From Deltaproteobacteria bacterium (GTDB taxonomy: Bacteria > Desulfobacterota > Syntrophia > Syntrophales > UBA2210): DNA of 6,173 nucleotides. The notes beneath the pieces were generated by a model. The model searched no databases. It saw nothing but the letters and a program-made list of their open reading frames with translations, and was not told the origin of the DNA. Below, one piece after another: positions 1-6,173 of the stretch; the first letter of the stretch is position 1, and the number at the start of each line of letters is the position of its first letter. The stretch is taken from contig JAFGPZ010000026.1 of NCBI GenBank assembly GCA_016935935.1, positions 1 to 6,173 on the forward strand. The letters run 5' to 3'. Made by a program: the position numbers and the translations under genes.

Positions 1-403
1 AGTGTTTGTAGCGTATCATGCCGTTCTTGTCGATGATGAACTGTGCCGGCATGCGTCCCAGTTTGAGGATTCGAACTTCTTGCCCGTACAACTTTGATAC
101 GTGGTGCTTCGGGTCGGCCAGTCCCGGGAATGGCATCTTATACTCGCCCCACCAGTCGGCAAAGGCTTTAGCTTTCTCAGGGCCGATGGCGATGACCTCT
201 GCCCCCCTGTCGACAAAATCATGGTATTCCTGGCGCAACTGCACCATATGCTTTCGGCAGTAAGGTCAGATAAAGCCACGGTTGAAAATCAGAATGACGT
301 GCCGGCTGCCTCTGTAACTGGAAAGTTTCACCGGTCTGCCTTCGCTGTCGGTAAGCTCGAAGTCGGGTGCCGGTGTCGGATCGACCCTTTCTACATCGCT
401 CAT
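1..403 (-). CDS. Peroxiredoxin-like (AhpC/TSA family) selenoprotein, partial at the window edge
   Basis: A thioredoxin-fold peroxiredoxin-like protein, probably a cytoplasmic thiol/selenol peroxidase or disulfide reductase. The start ATG (403-401) follows a strong AGGAGG site (415-410). Residues 1-45 show the family beginning (P-x-P-x-F-x-L-x-D-x-x-G) and strand V-I-L-I-F-N-R-G. Codon 46 is TGA (268-266). Reading on in the same frame gives 88 codons without a stop: P-Y-C-R-K-H-M, then the helix L-R-Q-E-Y, strand E-V-I-A-I-G, W-W-G-E-Y, F-P-G-L-A-D and M-P-A-Q-F-I-I-D-K-N-G, all in family order. The TGA therefore replaces the first Cys of a CPYC motif, giving U46-P47-Y48-C49. Sec-containing Prx-like proteins with UxxC are known from anaerobic bacteria. 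134 residues are visible; I infer that some 20-30 C-terminal residues lie outside. A nonsense mutation is the alternative, but the position and intact downstream frame argue against it. A Sec call requires selA, selB, selC and selD elsewhere in the genome. Confidence 0.85.
231..246 (-). other. Candidate bacterial SECIS hairpin for Sec insertion
   Basis: Read on the minus strand, TGGTGC-AGTT-GCGCCA forms a 6-bp stem (one G-U pair) with a 4-base loop. The loop begins 26 bases after the first base following the TGA codon's start triplet region, which is inside the spacing reported for bacterial SECIS elements (roughly 16-37 bases). A G is the second loop base, as expected for SelB recognition. 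The core GGU-GC-AGUU-GC resembles the apical part of the E. coli fdhF element, whose AGGUCU loop is also closed by GC. The element lies within the coding sequence, as in bacteria generally. It was judged by eye, without a folding program. Confidence 0.6.
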
Positions 404-409
404 GCCTAA

Positions 410-415
410 CCTCCT
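410..415 (-). promoter_or_regulatory. Shine-Dalgarno site of the selenoprotein gene
   Basis: AGGAGG on the minus strand, 6 bases before the ATG at 403. It fixes the start codon and rules out the longer in-frame extension toward 559, whose translation (rich in C, H and I, with no family similarity) looks non-coding. Confidence 0.8.
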
Positions 416-428
416 TACCTTCCATCGA

Positions 429-456
429 TAAGTACATCTATGACACGGTTTGTCAA
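429..456 (-). promoter_or_regulatory. Possible promoter with overlapping palindrome before the selenoprotein gene
   Basis: On the minus strand, a consensus -35 TTGACA (456-451) is followed after 16-17 bases by a poor -10 (TACTTA/ACTTAT, about 434-428). The -35 overlaps an inverted repeat TGACA-CGGTT-TGTCA at 441-455 (5-base arms, 5-base spacer), a plausible operator. The weak -10 would fit a gene that needs an activator. Proposed from the sequence only. Confidence 0.3.
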
Positions 457-484
457 TGGTAAAAATTACAGAAAAGGATAAAAT

Positions 485-503
485 ATTAATGCGCGAAATT
501 AAT
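485..503. repeat. AT-rich inverted repeat, ATTAAT arms
   Basis: ATTAAT at 485-490 and 498-503 flank a 7-base spacer. Because ATTAAT is itself palindromic, this is both a direct and an inverted repeat. It lies in the 209-base gap between the selenoprotein gene and the acyl-CoA dehydrogenase gene. It may be only AT-rich background; no terminator for the dehydrogenase gene was found in this gap. Confidence 0.2.
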
Positions 504-612
504 TGGTGATAACAGAAACACAACATGATTATATGACACCCCAAGCCGAGGCAGAACACCTGTATACCGCGTTAAGTTCAGGAAGGAAAATCAACTGTTG
601 TCATCCATTTAA

Positions 613-1812
613 CTAAAGAAGTGCGGCCCCCTTGATGGTCATTATCTCGTTGGTGGCATCCATGATCTGGAGAAGTTTCGCATCACGCATGTACTTCTCC
701 AGTGTGAACTCCCTTGATATACCGTATCCCCCGAGAATCTGTACCATCTCCACAGTATGTTTCATGGCCATGTTTGTGGCAAAGACCCTTCCCGCAGCCG
801 AGAGCTTAAGATCACCCAGAAACTTGTTTGCCAAGGCCCAGGAAGCTTTCCATAGAAGCGCTCTTGCAGCCTCAATCGCCTGGTACGCATCGAAGAGCTT
901 GAAGGCCACAGCCTGATGCTCTATTATCGGTTTACCGAACTGGACACGCTCCTTTGCGTAGGACAGGGCCTCTTCATAGGCGGATCGAAGCAATCCCACA
1001 GCAAGGTAGCCCACACCGATGTTGCCAGTGGTCTTTATAGCGTTGTGCATCATGGGATAACCTTCTCCGTGAGGAAATATCATATAGTCTTCTGGAATGT
1101 GCACATCATCAAAGCACACATCGGCCTGATTGAGAGCTCTCATGCCTATCTTATCCAAAGCTTTCCCCTTTGTGATCCCCTTGCCGTCAGGCACCAGAAA
1201 AACGGCAGACCCGCAAATCCCCATAGAAGGATCGACACAGGCAAAGAGCAGGTACACACTGGCGATACCACCATTGCTGACAAAGCTTGATTTGGCGCCG
1301 TTTATTATCCACTCTTTACTCTCTTTAAATGCCCTTGTCTCATGACACACTTCTGTATCGTAGTAATTACTTCCATCGGAACCTATATTCCCCTCGGAAC
1401 TGCCCCAGGCTGATATATGGGTGGCTTCTGTGTCCTCACAATAGGGTCTGACGTAGTTGTCGATCAGATTCTTCTTTGAAGAGGCTATAATGCTCAGGAA
1501 AAGGGGAACGACGGCACCGGCAAGGAGTGTAGCCGTTATTCCGACCCCTCCTGCTGCCAACTCCTCCCAGACCAGAGCTGTTGTCATGGGGCCGAGACCG
1601 AGACCGCCATACTCCTCTTTAATTCCCATTTTATGGAATCCAAGCTCATAAGCCCTTTTCATGACATTCCTGAAGACTTCGCTTTTGAATACTTCTTCGG
1701 GATTGGTTATTCTGTCCAGCTCGATCTCGGCGGGGCGTATGACTTCCCTGGCAAACCTGCTAGCCAGTTCCCGTATCTCCAACTGTTCCTCTGAAGGTAA
1801 AAAATCAATCAT
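613..1812 (-). CDS. Acyl-CoA dehydrogenase (FAD-dependent) with Asp at the usual catalytic Glu position
   Basis: A 399-residue flavoprotein of the acyl-CoA dehydrogenase family, full length for the family. Such enzymes oxidise acyl-CoA thioesters at C2-C3 and pass electrons to ETF. The N-terminal helical domain runs from about 1 to 125 (S-E-E-Q-L-E-I-R; E-E-Y-G-G-L-G-L-G at 66-74). The middle beta domain carries S-E-G-N-I-G-S-D (139-146) in place of the usual T-E-P-x-x-G-S-D. The C-terminal domain has R-V-Q-F-G-K-P-I (289-296), G-G-Y-G-I-S-R-E (361-368) and M-R-D-A-K. The base of MCAD (E376 in Y-E-G-T) aligns with D385 in Q-I-M-D-A-T-N-E-I, and the alternative Glu site of isovaleryl-CoA dehydrogenase aligns with Thr near 261. 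ATG 1812 is preferred because GGAG (1825-1822) lies 9 bases before it. A GTG at 1827 would add 5 residues but lacks a ribosome site. The gene starts 1 base after the ADC-family gene. Its substrate is unknown. Confidence 0.93.
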   Translation of the reverse strand: MIDFLPSEEQLEIRELASRFAREVIRPAEIELDRITNPEEVFKSEVFRNVMKRAYELGFHKMGIKEEYGGLGLGPMTTALVWEELAAGGVGITATLLAGAVVPLFLSIIASSKKNLIDNYVRPYCEDTEATHISAWGSSEGNIGSDGSNYYDTEVCHETRAFKESKEWIINGAKSSFVSNGGIASVYLLFACVDPSMGICGSAVFLVPDGKGITKGKALDKIGMRALNQADVCFDDVHIPEDYMIFPHGEGYPMMHNAIKTTGNIGVGYLAVGLLRSAYEEALSYAKERVQFGKPIIEHQAVAFKLFDAYQAIEAARALLWKASWALANKFLGDLKLSAAGRVFATNMAMKHTVEMVQILGGYGISREFTLEKYMRDAKLLQIMDATNEIMTIKGAALL

Positions 1813-1813
1813 A

Positions 1814-2581
1814 TTAGAAATCTCCACTGAAATCAGTCATGATAAACGAATAAGGAAGAAAGGCCTCGGGTTCCGCCTCGCCGACAATCTCACCCGGGTT
1901 TAACGATATGTTATTTACCATATAAAAGGCCGAGACAACGCGCTTTACCTCGATCTCCTGCCAGGGATCATGTGGCGAATACTCCAGGACAATTTCGCCG
2001 GGTCCCATCTCAAAACTCTCCGTATCGAGGTCATTTTGCTGGCGGACCAGCAGGACCTTCCCGTCGAATCCCCGGCTCAGATCGGCTGCAGGTGAATACT
2101 TGAAGAGAAAATTGGGTCCAGGTTTAATTGGTGATTCCTTCATGCTGATCTGCAGATCAGCCCTGATGGTGGCGAAGCGATATCCCAGACGCTCGATCCA
2201 TCCCTCGACTTTGCTTCCCTCCCGATTCAGTCCGATGCGCGCCATCTTCTTCGGAAAGCCATAAATATCCCGTCCATTATGCATGCGCGCTTCATCATCT
2301 ATGGGCATGGATAGACAGTAGTTACCCACCTCGCCTCTATACCGGCAGCGCACGAAGAGGGCACTCTCGTGATAGCCAGGCCCCAGATTAGTCAAAGGAT
2401 AGTGAGATATGAAGCTGAGAGCCCATGGTTCCTCAGCAGGTTCCAGCGGGAGGGGGAGAACCTTCTTGATAATCACGGGGTCTGTTTCATACATTATCCC
2501 CAGTATCTGGGCGCCGGGAAATGCCCTTGTTGAAAGTTTATAGTATCTATCCAGTTCTTCTTCAGATTTAACAAAACCCAT
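1814..2581 (-). CDS. Acetoacetate decarboxylase (ADC) family protein
   Basis: A 255-residue protein of the ADC superfamily, close to the usual length of about 245-260. Acetoacetate decarboxylase forms a Schiff base between a lysine and a beta-keto acid and releases CO2; some relatives instead catalyse aldol or hydratase chemistry. The hallmark G-R-D-I-Y-G-F-P-K-K is at 103-112. K111 matches the Schiff-base lysine and K112 the lysine that lowers its pKa. E72 in Y-H-E-S-A-L-F probably matches a conserved active-site Glu. R99 and the turn P-I-D-D-E-A-R-M-H-N fit the family. No signal peptide or membrane segment is visible. The ATG follows AGGAGGAGG (2595-2587) at 5 bases. The stop TAA (1816-1814) nearly abuts the dehydrogenase start, suggesting one operon and a shared pathway, such as degradation of a keto or cyclic acid through CoA esters. 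Family assignment is firm; true decarboxylase activity is not proven. Confidence 0.9.
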   Translation of the reverse strand: MGFVKSEEELDRYYKLSTRAFPGAQILGIMYETDPVIIKKVLPLPLEPAEEPWALSFISHYPLTNLGPGYHESALFVRCRYRGEVGNYCLSMPIDDEARMHNGRDIYGFPKKMARIGLNREGSKVEGWIERLGYRFATIRADLQISMKESPIKPGPNFLFKYSPAADLSRGFDGKVLLVRQQNDLDTESFEMGPGEIVLEYSPHDPWQEIEVKRVVSAFYMVNNISLNPGEIVGEAEPEAFLPYSFIMTDFSGDF

Positions 2582-2586
2582 GTTAT

Positions 2587-2595
2587 CCTCCTCCT
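2587..2595 (-). promoter_or_regulatory. Extended Shine-Dalgarno site of the ADC-family gene
   Basis: AGGAGGAGG on the minus strand, ending 5 bases before the ATG at 2581. It is unusually strong and directly abuts the AU-rich inverted repeat at 2596-2617, so access to it could depend on that structure. Confidence 0.75.
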
Positions 2596-2617
2596 ATAAA
2601 ATGTTTTTGAATTTTAT
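2596..2617 (-). repeat. Inverted repeat ATAAAAT/ATTTTAT next to the ADC ribosome site
   Basis: Perfect 7-base arms (2596-2602 and 2611-2617) with an 8-base spacer, all A-T in the stem. In the transcript the arm ends directly at the AGGAGGAGG site. It may be a repressor operator or a weak 5' UTR hairpin. The rest of the 177-base gap up to the transporter stop shows no clear promoter or terminator. Confidence 0.35.
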
Positions 2618-2758
2618 GTAATAAAGCCACTGAAGCTCCATCAACAGACAAAAAGATCGTGTTGGACGGGTCGTCAGTTTTCAAGCTGGAGAGACAGAAG
2701 TTCCAATGAACCTTAGGTGGCCTTTTAAGACACATAAATCGTCGCCCCCAGGGGACTG

Positions 2759-4045
2759 TCAATCAGCTAAGGTAAGCGTAATTTTCTCGACCTTCTCCAG
2801 ATCCCTCACGTAAAAGCGAGAAGCCGCAATGTAGAGAAAACTTGCCAGAAGCGTAAATGACGGAAGTATTATCAGCGCCGTTTCAATATTATAATGATCT
2901 GACATTGCGCCCACAAAGATGGGACCCAACGAACTCCCAAGTAGATTCTGAAAGATGACGCAGAAGCTGTATGATACGGCCCTGAGACCGGGATGAACTA
3001 CATCCTGCGTAACGGCGATCGCCGAAGGTGCGAAAGCCATGGCGGATATTCCGCCGATCAGGATGACGATGTACTGTGTTGTTCCTTCAAGAAAGGTAAA
3101 TGACAGAAAAAAGATGAGGGCCGTTAAAGCCGAAAACAGAGCGCTATTATAGAGGCGGGCATTGACTGATCTTCTCCGCCACCTGTCGGCTATAAAACCA
3201 CCGAGTGGCGCTCCTACAATGGATAGCAACATCACCATACCTGCCTTCACTGATGCTTTTTCCATTGGTAAACCGCCAAATCTGTTAAAATAAGTGGGCA
3301 GCCAGCTCAATAATGCGACAACGACAAACATATTCCCGGCGAATGCCAGATAGGTAAGAATAAGGGACGGTGTATGAGTGAACTCACGAATAACATCCAT
3401 ACTCTTCATTTTCTTTTTTCTGCTATCGACCTCTTCCTTTACCGTCTTTATCAGATCTACTGTTTTGTAATCCTTTACAAAGAAGAACAACACCGCAACC
3501 AGTAATCCCGGAATGGCAACAATTCCAAAGGCATGCCGCCATCCATATCGAGTGGCAATGAATCCGCCCAGAGCGATACCCAGTGCGCTGCCTATAGGTA
3601 CGGCCGTGCTGAACAGCCCGAGAAGCATGGCACGCTTCTTTTCGGGAAAGAACGCGGAGATCATAGCTGTTCCCCCTGGCGCGTATCCAGCCTCACCGAC
3701 TCCTATGACTGTTCTGGCAAAAAAAAGCTGCGTAAGATTGCGAGTGAAAGCACAGGCTACGGTTGCAATGCTCCATACAATCGCCATAAGTCCAATAATT
3801 TTTTTTCTGCTCCAACGGTCTATAAGTACAGATACCGGGAAGGAAAAGATAACGATTGACCAGTAAACGGCCGAGACCAGCATGCCGCACTGAGTATCGG
3901 AAAGCCCCCAGTCACTCTTCAGGTAGGGGAATAGGGAAACCACCACCATCCGATCAATATAATCGAAAAGATAGAGAAGAAATAGCAGGATGAATACAGA
4001 ATATGAATATCTTTTTGAAATCAGGTGTTCATTGTCGCTTCCCAT
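2759..4045 (-). CDS. Major facilitator superfamily (MFS) transporter
   Basis: A 428-residue inner-membrane secondary transporter with about 12 predicted membrane helices, normal for the family. Helix 1 (about 13-35) holds L-F-D-Y-I-D-R. The loop between helices 2 and 3 has the MFS signature D76-R-W-S-R-K-K82, echoed in the second half as A-D-R-W-R-R-R-S (286-293). R111-x-x-I-G-x-G-E118-A-G-Y-A-P-G-G resembles the motif of organic-anion (ACS) and Spinster-like MFS members. The central basic loop (about 191-220) separates the two six-helix halves. The ATG follows a G-rich ribosome site (AGGGGGT) at about 5 bases. It precedes the ADC and acyl-CoA dehydrogenase genes on the same strand, so it may import their substrate, probably a carboxylate. 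This role is inferred; the substrate cannot be read from the sequence. Confidence 0.9.
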   Translation of the reverse strand: MGSDNEHLISKRYSYSVFILLFLLYLFDYIDRMVVVSLFPYLKSDWGLSDTQCGMLVSAVYWSIVIFSFPVSVLIDRWSRKKIIGLMAIVWSIATVACAFTRNLTQLFFARTVIGVGEAGYAPGGTAMISAFFPEKKRAMLLGLFSTAVPIGSALGIALGGFIATRYGWRHAFGIVAIPGLLVAVLFFFVKDYKTVDLIKTVKEEVDSRKKKMKSMDVIREFTHTPSLILTYLAFAGNMFVVVALLSWLPTYFNRFGGLPMEKASVKAGMVMLLSIVGAPLGGFIADRWRRRSVNARLYNSALFSALTALIFFLSFTFLEGTTQYIVILIGGISAMAFAPSAIAVTQDVVHPGLRAVSYSFCVIFQNLLGSSLGPIFVGAMSDHYNIETALIILPSFTLLASFLYIAASRFYVRDLEKVEKITLTLAD

Positions 4046-4348
4046 AATAACCCCCTATCAGAAGATTTTGTACTTCCATTCTTTTGAGACAGGCCTCGGG
4101 ACAATGTCTGTTGCTAACGTCAGTTAAAATCTCAGGAACTATTTGTGCGCAGTTGTGCGGAATCCAGGATGAATTGTCATATCAGCAGGTGAGATTGCAT
4201 TTTTCATACTTCCCCCCATGGCAGGAAAAATAAAATTTTATTGCGAAAATGTCAATGAGTATTCGTTAACAGAACGCCTTTTTGTCATACCTGTATGCCA
4301 GGAGTGGAGCACAAAAGGCAAAGGAAGAATCGCAGACACGAGACGCCT
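4046..4348. other. 303-base intergenic region between regulator and transporter genes
   Basis: Both flanking genes are on the minus strand. The gap holds a promoter-like element (4227-4255) that would produce a leader of about 175 bases before the transporter. The leader contains a possible 22-codon ORF (4207-4139, minus; begins M-K-N-A-I-S-P) behind a G-run, and a small TAAC-TGAC-GTTA inverted repeat (about 4113-4125). No convincing rho-independent terminator for the regulator gene and no recognisable riboswitch was seen. A plus-strand reading frame from 4218 is antisense overlap and not a gene. Confidence 0.5.
4227..4255 (-). promoter_or_regulatory. Sigma-70-like promoter for the MFS transporter
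   Basis: On the minus strand, TTGACA (4255-4250) is separated by exactly 17 bases from TATTTT (4232-4227): a perfect -35, optimal spacing and 4 of 6 bases in the -10. Transcription would start near 4220 and run toward the transporter, giving a leader of about 175 bases. It could serve the whole transporter-ADC-dehydrogenase group. Confidence 0.5.
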
Positions 4349-5047
4349 TCAGGAAAGTCTGCCATCTCCTTCCGCAATTTTCGTTAGTCCGGAACGATCG
4401 AGTATGATTATTTTCGAACCTTCAGATCGCAGCAAACCTCTCTTTTGCATCTTGGCAATGATTCGTGACAACGTCTCGGGAATCGTACCCAGAAGGCTCG
4501 CAAGCTGACCCTTGGGCATGTCCAGTAATATATCATCAGACCCTCCGCATTTCCTGCTGAGAGAAAGTATATGCGTCGCCAGGCGCCCCGGAACTTCTCT
4601 CAGTGAGAGGGCTTCTATGATCCCTGAAAACTTCCTTAGCCTTTTGGACAGAACTGCAAGCATATTGAGAGAAAGATCAGGATCTTTTCTCATAAGTCCG
4701 ATAAAGGGATGGCGGGGAAAGAAGAGCATGGAACTTTCCTTCATGGCATCTGCGTAGGCTGGAAAGGATCTGTCCGAAAAGACGGCCACCTCTCCAAAGG
4801 GATCACCGTCTTCAAAAATGTGGAGTATCTGCTCCTTGCCCTCCGGGGAGAGTTTATATATCCTGACGCTACCTGAGAGTATCACAAAAAACCCATTCGC
4901 CTCGTCGCCTTCTGAAAAAATAGCCTCACCGCGGGCGTAACTGCGCCGGATAGCAACCCGTGCGAGTGCGTCCCTCTGGCCAGTAGAAAGGTTTTCGAAG
5001 AGTGGAATCTTCGCTATATGATCAGTTATTGTCACTTTACTCCCCAT
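4349..5047 (-). CDS. CRP/FNR family transcription regulator, DNR-like
   Basis: A 232-residue regulator of usual family length. The N-terminal cyclic-nucleotide-binding-type beta barrel spans about 12-110 (G-E-A-I-F-S-E-G-D at 40-48, F-F-V-I-L-S-G-S-V-R-I at 53-63, F-G-E-V-A at 84-88). The cAMP-binding Arg-Ser of CRP is absent, so cAMP is unlikely. A long dimerisation helix (about 118-147) leads to a C-terminal winged helix-turn-helix (about 178-206). The recognition helix P-E-T-L-S-R has E191, S194 and R195, the FNR/DNR pattern that reads TTGA-type half-sites. There is no N-terminal Cys cluster; the only Cys is C167, so an FNR-type 4Fe-4S oxygen sensor is excluded. A heme or NO-responsive DNR-like role is possible. 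The ATG at 5047 lacks a ribosome site; a GTG at 5035, preceded by GGGGAG, is an alternative start giving 228 residues. It is divergent from the ferredoxin-like gene and shares its operator. Confidence 0.92.
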   Translation of the reverse strand: MGSKVTITDHIAKIPLFENLSTGQRDALARVAIRRSYARGEAIFSEGDEANGFFVILSGSVRIYKLSPEGKEQILHIFEDGDPFGEVAVFSDRSFPAYADAMKESSMLFFPRHPFIGLMRKDPDLSLNMLAVLSKRLRKFSGIIEALSLREVPGRLATHILSLSRKCGGSDDILLDMPKGQLASLLGTIPETLSRIIAKMQKRGLLRSEGSKIIILDRSGLTKIAEGDGRLS

Positions 5048-5054
5048 GTGTTTG

Positions 5055-5084
5055 AAAATACAATTTGTTTTTGACTTAAGTCAA
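5055..5084 (-). promoter_or_regulatory. Promoter of the regulator gene, overlapped by its probable operator
   Basis: On the minus strand, TTGACT (5084-5079) and TATTTT (5060-5055) are separated by 18 bases, predicting a start point near 5048. The -35 is one arm of the palindrome at 5071-5084, which would be centred near -29.5, a position where binding normally blocks RNA polymerase. This suggests negative autoregulation. Confidence 0.4.
5071..5084. promoter_or_regulatory. FNR/DNR-type operator, perfect palindrome
   Basis: TTGACTTAAGTCAA is a perfect 14-base palindrome of the form TTGAC-N4-GTCAA. FNR recognises TTGAT-N4-ATCAA and DNR-like proteins accept TTGAC half-sites. The adjacent regulator has the matching E-x-x-S-R recognition helix. 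The site lies in the 105-base divergent region between the regulator and the ferredoxin-like gene. Confidence 0.8.
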
Positions 5085-5106
5085 GGATCTTCTTTTCATA
5101 CATGAT

Positions 5107-5112
5107 TATTTT
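5107..5112 (+). promoter_or_regulatory. -10 box of a class II activated promoter for the ferredoxin-like gene
   Basis: TATTTT matches the -10 consensus at 4 of 6 bases. Placing it at -12 to -7 puts the start point at 5119, exactly 41.5 bases from the centre of the operator (5077.5). This is the standard distance for class II activation by FNR-family proteins, which replaces a -35. A start at 5119 also excludes the upstream ATG at 5102. Confidence 0.5.
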
Positions 5113-5152
5113 ATTAATCAGAGGAAACAGTAATACGAGAGAGGTAACGATA

Positions 5153-5890
5153 ATGAAGACTATGCGAAAAATTATCAAGATAGACGAAGATAAATGCGAC
5201 GGCTGCGGGCTTTGCGTGCCGGCTTGCGCCGAAGGAGCCATACATATCGTGGATGGAAGGGCAAGGCTCGTGGCTGAACGTTACTGCGACGGCCTCGGGG
5301 CTTGCCTCGGTGAATGTCCCCGCGATGCCCTTGAAATAGTAGACGCTGATGTAGAAGAGTTTGATGAAGATACCGCCGGACAACATCTTAAAGAGATAAA
5401 ATCACCGGCAGAACAGGAAATGCCGGCATCGGCAGGTGGGTGCCCTTCGGCCCGTATTGGGAACTTCCGAAAATTGTCACCGTGCAGCGAGGCAAATCTG
5501 CCCCATAGTCAAATCGCCGCCGGATCGGAACTCTCTAACTGGCCCGTACAGATCAGCCTTGTACCTCCCGAAGCTCCTTTCCTTAGGAACGCTGATATTC
5601 TCGTAGCCGCAGACTGTTCTCCCCTGGCATATGCAAATTTCCACCGGGATTTTCTCAAGGGGAAGGTAGTACTCATGGGATGCCCTAAATTCGACGACTC
5701 ACGGGCCTATATTGAGAAATTCGCACAGATCTTTCGTGAGGCTTATATCAAAAGCATCACTGTGATAGTCATGGAAGTCCCCTGCTGTCAGGGGATGCCC
5801 GTTATCCTCAAGAAAGCAATGGAACTGGCAGGTAAAAACATACCGATGGAACAGAAAACTGTTAGCACCAAAGGAAAAATCCTTCACTGA
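5153..5890 (+). CDS. 4Fe-4S ferredoxin-type cysteine-rich protein
   Basis: A 245-residue cytoplasmic iron-sulfur protein of a family common in anaerobes, often annotated only as a 4Fe-4S dicluster-domain protein. The N-terminal ferredoxin domain has a complete C15-x2-C18-x2-C21-x3-C25. Its second motif is C45-x5-C51-x3-C55-P, where Leu48 occupies the expected second Cys position. An acidic linker (about 64-95) leads to G-G-C97-P. A C-terminal alpha/beta domain (about 129-245) begins W-P-V-Q-I and carries A-A-D-C155, G-C177-P-K-F-D-D and V-P-C211-C212-Q-G, further potential metal or redox ligands. The ATG at 5153 follows GAGG (5141-5144) at 8 bases; the in-frame ATG at 5102 lies before the predicted transcription start. 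In my recollection of the family, such genes sit beside CRP/FNR regulators and hybrid-cluster protein genes, hinting at nitrosative or redox stress. The biochemical function is unknown. Confidence 0.88.
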   Translation: MKTMRKIIKIDEDKCDGCGLCVPACAEGAIHIVDGRARLVAERYCDGLGACLGECPRDALEIVDADVEEFDEDTAGQHLKEIKSPAEQEMPASAGGCPSARIGNFRKLSPCSEANLPHSQIAAGSELSNWPVQISLVPPEAPFLRNADILVAADCSPLAYANFHRDFLKGKVVLMGCPKFDDSRAYIEKFAQIFREAYIKSITVIVMEVPCCQGMPVILKKAMELAGKNIPMEQKTVSTKGKILH

Positions 5891-6173
5891 AATGTGTCTG
5901 TCTTTAGCACCTTGAAATGAGAAATCTATCCATGGCAGCTTTTTCTACAGCATGGATCGGGTTAATATGGAGGCAAAAGAAGTATTTTGCGTGAAATGTG
6001 ACAGAGAAACAATATCTGCTCTTTCTGAAGGGCGTGATATGTCTGTAATGTTATCGCTTTTTAGTGGAATAAAATTTTTTGCTGCACCATGTGATTCATT
6101 CTGTGTTATAGATATTTTTTCGAACTGATAGAGTCCATACTGGGCTTAAGAGTAATGCATGGTCACTCCTTAA
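5891..6173. other. Right-edge region of 283 bases
   Basis: Apart from the small candidate ORF at 5967-6128, nothing is recognised. No hairpin followed by a T run marks the end of the ferredoxin-like gene. The last bases contain, on the minus strand, AAGGAG followed by ATG, but that frame stops after four codons. Confidence 0.4.
5967..6128 (+). CDS. Small cysteine-containing ORF, hypothetical
   Basis: A 53-codon frame, or 58 codons from the in-frame ATG at 5952. It reads as a short protein with C8-x2-C11 near its start and C42-x3-C46 near its end, an arrangement compatible with a small zinc or iron-sulfur site. It lies 76 bases after the ferredoxin-like gene on the same strand and could be co-transcribed. 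No good ribosome site precedes either ATG, the sequence is AT-rich, and I recognise no family. It may instead be a remnant or chance frame. Confidence 0.3.
   Translation: MEAKEVFCVKCDRETISALSEGRDMSVMLSLFSGIKFFAAPCDSFCVIDIFSN

Follow-up and report, generated by a model that had tools for sequence, protein, structure and literature searches.

An in-frame TGA as a predicted selenocysteine codon in a Prx-like thiol:disulfide oxidoreductase gene of a deltaproteobacterium

In this study, we analyzed a 6,173-nucleotide stretch of DNA from a Deltaproteobacteria bacterium of the Syntrophales (assembly GCA_016935935.1, contig JAFGPZ010000026.1, positions 1 to 6,173 of the forward strand; hereafter the window), and focused on a minus-strand gene at its left edge that is interrupted by an in-frame TGA. 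We consider it very probable that this codon specifies selenocysteine (Sec) at position 46 of a thioredoxin-fold Prx-like thiol:disulfide oxidoreductase, and that Sec is inserted via SelB and tRNA-Sec with a downstream hairpin. What can be seen directly is the frame itself, a stop column conserved among relatives, Cys homologues, a TGA that recurs in distant relatives at the DNA level, the hairpin and the predicted fold. The features of the gene are as follows.

Positions 2 to 403, minus strand: gene for a Prx-like thiol:disulfide oxidoreductase in which codon 46 is a predicted Sec codon; 134 codons lie within the window and the 3' end is beyond it.
Positions 401 to 403, minus strand: ATG start codon, with an AAGGAGG ribosome-binding site just before it, read from the sequence.
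Positions 266 to 268, minus strand: in-frame TGA, codon 46, the predicted Sec of the motif U46-P-Y-C49, based on the frame and the stop column of relatives.
Positions 257 to 259, minus strand: Cys codon C49, partner of U46, invariant in a 34-row alignment (A1).

Translation of the reverse strand from the ATG at 403-401 gave 134 residues with a single TGA at codon 46 and zero other stops, and the 88 codons after it (residues 47-134) stay open until the frame leaves the window at base 2. An earlier note, made from the letters of the window, had pointed to this TGA (as 263-271, that is, the codon plus one codon on either side), to the 88 open codons and to peroxiredoxin-like sequence across the interruption, all of which we confirmed: the Pfam domain AhpC-TSA (PF00578) spans the TGA over residues 11-132 with 105 bits, against a cut-off of 26. 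The note had also placed the TGA on the resolving or peroxidatic Cys of a CxxC motif. This was right in part. Cys homologues do occur at the column and UPYC is a thioredoxin-type pair, but alignments read by eye put U46 on the Thr of the peroxiredoxin TxxC and C49 on the peroxidatic Cys, so that U46 is neither of the two peroxiredoxin cysteines.

A search with the read-through protein returned 699 proteins, 120 of which were listed, and the counts at the column given here refer to the listed ones. Annotation frequently splits the family: 84 of the 120 were C-terminal fragments (one of them the window's own) and 36 were full length across the column. The 83 fragments among the 119 non-window relatives begin 7-13 residues past the codon, their matches starting at residues 53-59, mostly at the Met of MAQLR. 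At the column itself, the full-length relatives carry either Cys (14) or Trp (22), the former being the Cys homologues that the earlier note had proposed to look for. A second search used the 45 residues that precede the TGA and found 10 proteins, and a profile of those 10 matched 1775 short proteins, of which the 120 listed ones were examined. N-terminal halves that stop at one and the same residue proved to be common: all 121 fragments fetched from both searches (120 external and the window's own) end at the position equivalent to residue 45. These searches admit short proteins only (about 25 to 79 residues) and exclude full-length ones; what is informative is the agreement of all ends on one residue. 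Automated annotation often splits the gene in this way, one of the outcomes that the earlier note had expected. For 25 of the 119 external listed N-terminal fragments, the longest contig is equal in bases to that of a listed C-terminal fragment (24 distinct values, e.g. 2,786,541 and 4,802,620); because of these identical sizes, the two halves in these 25 cases appear to lie next to each other on the same DNA. The fragments also supported the ATG, since eight of the nine external ones from the first N-terminal search were 45 aa long and the remaining one 43 aa. The 36 full-length relatives have 132-203 aa, mostly 151-171, and perhaps 20-35 residues of the window protein lie past the window edge.

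The recurrence of the stop at the same residue argues against both chance and a local sequencing error, the latter (TGC or TGT read as TGA) having been named in the earlier note as a reason to abandon the Sec reading. It is true that the window comes from a single contig, which would allow for such an error or for a pseudogene. Nevertheless, we regard both as very improbable: the frame stops at the identical residue in the 120 external N-terminal fragments, the sequence is conserved on both sides of the TGA (identity to relatives up to 87% before and up to 83% after it), and the DNA of Thermomicrobium roseum and of Nitrospinota has TGA at the same column.

The Trp found in 22 of the 36 full-length relatives could instead suggest an organism in which TGA stands for Trp or some other standard amino acid (code-4 or code-25 type). 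Three neighbouring genes in the window, encoding an MFS protein, a Crp-type regulator and a ferredoxin, terminate at TGA; Trp is encoded by TGG 18 times, and the six genes examined contain no further in-frame TGA. Thus, TGA is no general sense codon here. A tree was also built from 120 rows and 108 columns, all in the region past residue 52, for which the program warned of few columns, long branches and unsettled bootstrap values. In this tree, the window fell into a supported 80-row clade (95/93) whose other 79 rows were all C-terminal fragments, and rows with Trp, Cys and fragments were mixed within supported clades, e.g. P0004 (Trp) with three fragments at 100/98. Such mixing is expected if a gene caller applied table 4, and because of it the Trp in database relatives is probably a TGA translated with that table. 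A changed genetic code is very unlikely to explain the codon. Pseudogene, sequencing error and code-4 organism were all rejected as explanations of the in-frame TGA. As a side observation, the 22 full-length database proteins with Trp at the Sec column (P0004-P0056) are probably an artefact of gene calling with table 4, by which selenoproteins go unseen in public protein sets.

For relatives that are more distant, TGA was read directly from DNA. In the aligned gene of the T. roseum plasmid NC_011961.1, it stands at codon 43 (LRGLR-U-PYCRRHLAQLR), in the same column as the window TGA. In Nitrospinota, nine of 18 genomes matched at 16 places, and an in-frame TGA was present at 11 places in eight genomes, always at the column (labels L023 and L038 denote one place). 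Above-cut-off matches to tRNA-Sec were obtained in 16 of the 18 Nitrospinota genomes (72-76 bits for the best match of each), although five of 14 control genomes were also above the cut-off, and selA was above cut-off in 14 of the 18. Among the eight genomes with TGA loci, six had tRNA-Sec and four had selA above cut-off. A selB search in one Nitrospinota genome yielded five matches, none above cut-off.

Several of these loci deserve separate mention. The T. roseum relative (L074:1501-1968; NC_011961.1 545266-545733), with its in-frame TGA and an AGUU hairpin, is annotated solely as a 42-aa hypothetical protein, WP_012643006.1. Ten of the Nitrospinota loci form two groups: L023, L028, L031, L032 and L035 share YRGxF-U-xxC and a GUN loop at 21 nt, and L022, L024, L025, L029 and L037 share RHLG-U-IFC and an AGUU loop at 25 nt. 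L027 (genome G012) is TlpA-like; its motif is TTH-U-PYC, with TGA replacing the first Cys, and the residue aligned with R42 is a tryptophan.

Downstream of the TGA in the window lies a hairpin resembling a Sec insertion sequence (SECIS).

Positions 231 to 246, minus strand: SECIS-like hairpin with a 6-bp stem (UGGUGC/GCGCCA) and the apical loop AGUU, the loop lying 25 nt after the UGA; identified by folding and comparison.

The bSECIS model, as given in PMC13188914, has a loop of 3-9 nt, a stem of 4-16 bp, a G in the first two loop positions, a distance of 16-37 nt from the UGA and a minimum free energy (MFE) of at most -7.5. The window hairpin agreed with all of these, with an MFE of -10.0 kcal/mol for a stretch of 40 nt and -11.7 for one of 59 nt. 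Hairpins as strong in energy and 6-bp stem appeared in 19 of 1000 synonymous recodings and at 21 of 1466 other codon positions. The T. roseum locus and all 11 Nitrospinota TGA loci also conformed to the bSECIS model. Seven sequences (the window, T. roseum and five Nitrospinota) have the loop AGUU at the identical 25 nt; of the remaining six Nitrospinota loci, five have GUC, GUU or GUG at 21 nt and L027 has GGC at 20 nt. The Leu within the hairpin is TTG in all seven, compared with 9.2% of Leu codons pooled over crude reading frames, the five Nitrospinota not being independent. With the window left out, a covariance model of the remaining six sequences gave the window site 42.3 bits (E 2.5e-12), against 9.0 for the next best match, and reached at most 11.4 bits on 22 loci without TGA at the column. 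Because protein conservation contributes to this score, a synonymous control was run, in which 378 of 100000 draws equalled the window in their match to the shared 14-nt hairpin.

It is possible, and we suggest it with some reserve, that the hairpin with the AGUU loop, always placed 25 nt after the UGA, is one SECIS, near-identical across the window's lineage, Thermomicrobiota and Nitrospinota; Sec would then be old in the branch marked by R42, U46 and P119, and the SECIS would be under joint protein and RNA constraint, T. roseum included. The shared hairpin is in any case a candidate family SECIS. No mention of it was met in the available parts of the literature on the family, in which no search was aimed at it.

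Several results weigh against Sec at codon 46 or against the hairpin as its signal. Among 1466 other codon positions, 260 satisfied the bare bSECIS criteria too, as did 237 of 1000 synonymous recodings. When the seven hairpins were aligned, covariation between paired positions was not above shuffles (286 of 500 were as high), the plain MFE of the downstream region did not differ significantly from shuffles (z 0.09 and -0.51), and an Rfam scan of the window gave no SECIS family and one chance match below cut-off. Close relatives are known from protein only, and a TGA stop in them, as opposed to TAA or TAG, is our inference. Among the distant loci, L022 holds an additional in-frame TAA. With regard to the machinery, tRNA-Sec was below cut-off in two and selA in four of the eight Nitrospinota genomes with TGA loci, and the T. 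roseum plasmid record had neither above cut-off, its chromosome not having been searched. With these points included, the Sec interpretation proposed in the earlier note is supported and is by far the best reading of the codon, given the Cys homologues, the TGA in relatives' DNA, the SECIS-like hairpin and a published selenoprotein family.

Relatives were also sought in other collections. A species-genome search with peptide patterns of the window protein gave 17 loci of 25-35% identity and reached no close relative; among the aligned loci, a stop at the column occurred only in L002 (Nitrospinota). Plasmids yielded 93 records, all below 60% identity and with T. roseum the best, viral contigs yielded zero relatives in two scans, and phages gave three weak matches to P0003. 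None of 398 Pseudomonadota genomes matched at E <= 1e-20, a sample that had no positive control and is therefore uninformative. In Bacteroidota, 17 of 395 genomes matched at E <= 1e-22, and none of the 18 listed places had an internal TGA (one had TAA and one TAG); in the ten loci fetched (11 aligned stretches), the column was Cys in eight stretches and Thr in three.

As to the surroundings of the gene, its upstream neighbour on the minus strand is an acyl-CoA dehydrogenase gene; because this gene ends about 200 bases away, the Prx-like gene may have its own transcript. At 613-2581 on the minus strand, the acyl-CoA dehydrogenase gene adjoins an acetoacetate-decarboxylase-like gene; a GTG start gives a 14-base overlap of the first on the second, and the internal ATG at 1812 could serve as the start instead. 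At 4349-5890, the Crp/Fnr-type regulator gene (minus) is divergent to the 4Fe-4S ferredoxin-type gene (plus).

We infer Sec insertion in this organism, as well as the catalytic cycle and the substrate, along the following lines. With the adjacent downstream hairpin as the signal, SelB and tRNA-Sec would decode UGA codon 46 as Sec, to give a thioredoxin-fold selenoprotein of probably 150-170 residues. Sec46 and Cys49 would form the redox pair: the selenolate would attack a disulfide (or peroxide) substrate, and the resulting selenenylsulfide with Cys49 would subsequently be reduced by a cellular thiol donor. Alternatively, Sec could be inserted into an enzyme that is chiefly a peroxidase and not a thiol:disulfide oxidoreductase. 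This appears unlikely, though less so than the explanations without Sec, as the positions of the peroxiredoxin active-site Pro, Thr and Arg hold R42, U46 and P119 in the window protein (alignments read by eye and a column table).

The window protein was compared with known systems. Canonical peroxiredoxins (Bcp/PrxQ, AhpE) and the Sec-peroxiredoxin TxxU have the fold in common with the window protein, and C49 falls on their peroxidatic Cys; their active site is Pro/Thr/Arg, whereas that of the window protein is Arg/Sec/Pro, and the canonical signature PxxxTxxC with an active-site Arg is absent from it. On these sequence grounds, the gene is better called a Prx-like thiol:disulfide oxidoreductase than a peroxiredoxin. 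Among the loci compared, R42 with U or C at 46 separates from P42/T46/R119, a simple rule to tell Prx-like oxidoreductases from real peroxiredoxins. The window protein shares with TlpA/ResA thiol-disulfide oxidoreductases a CxxC (or UxxC) pair with a conserved Pro opposite: UPYC aligns by eye with CPYC of 3hdc and RMP with RLP, and P119 is invariant in A1. Those enzymes have a first Cys where the window protein has the predicted Sec, and the NCBIfam ResA model gave 58.8 bits, short of its cut-off of 170. The best NCBIfam match was to SelL-related redox proteins (NF040769; 69 bits, below the cut-off of 120).

The closest known system is the Prx-like UxxC selenoprotein family, whose use of Sec was correctly described as established in the earlier note (PMC13188914, PMC1088965, PMC1794560). 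The Prx-like thiol:disulfide oxidoreductase (UxxC, PF00578) stands among the high-confidence predicted families in Table 1 of PMC13188914, the family was counted in Sargasso Sea data with UXXC replacing TXXU (PMC1088965), Prx-like families were counted in GOS data (PMC2398784), and Syntrophus aciditrophicus was listed with one Prx-like selenoprotein (PMC1794560). P0187, labelled S. aciditrophicus and located on a 3,179,300-base contig, is a fragment closely related to the window protein (69% identity), and is likely the same gene as that selenoprotein. The family and the window gene have in common the AhpC/TSA domain, UxxC instead of TxxU/TxxC, Cys homologues and a SECIS-like hairpin; no difference between them was found, in a comparison that did not extend to the published sequences of S. 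aciditrophicus and of the family representatives. That the window gene is a further copy of this already published selenoprotein family is therefore well supported.
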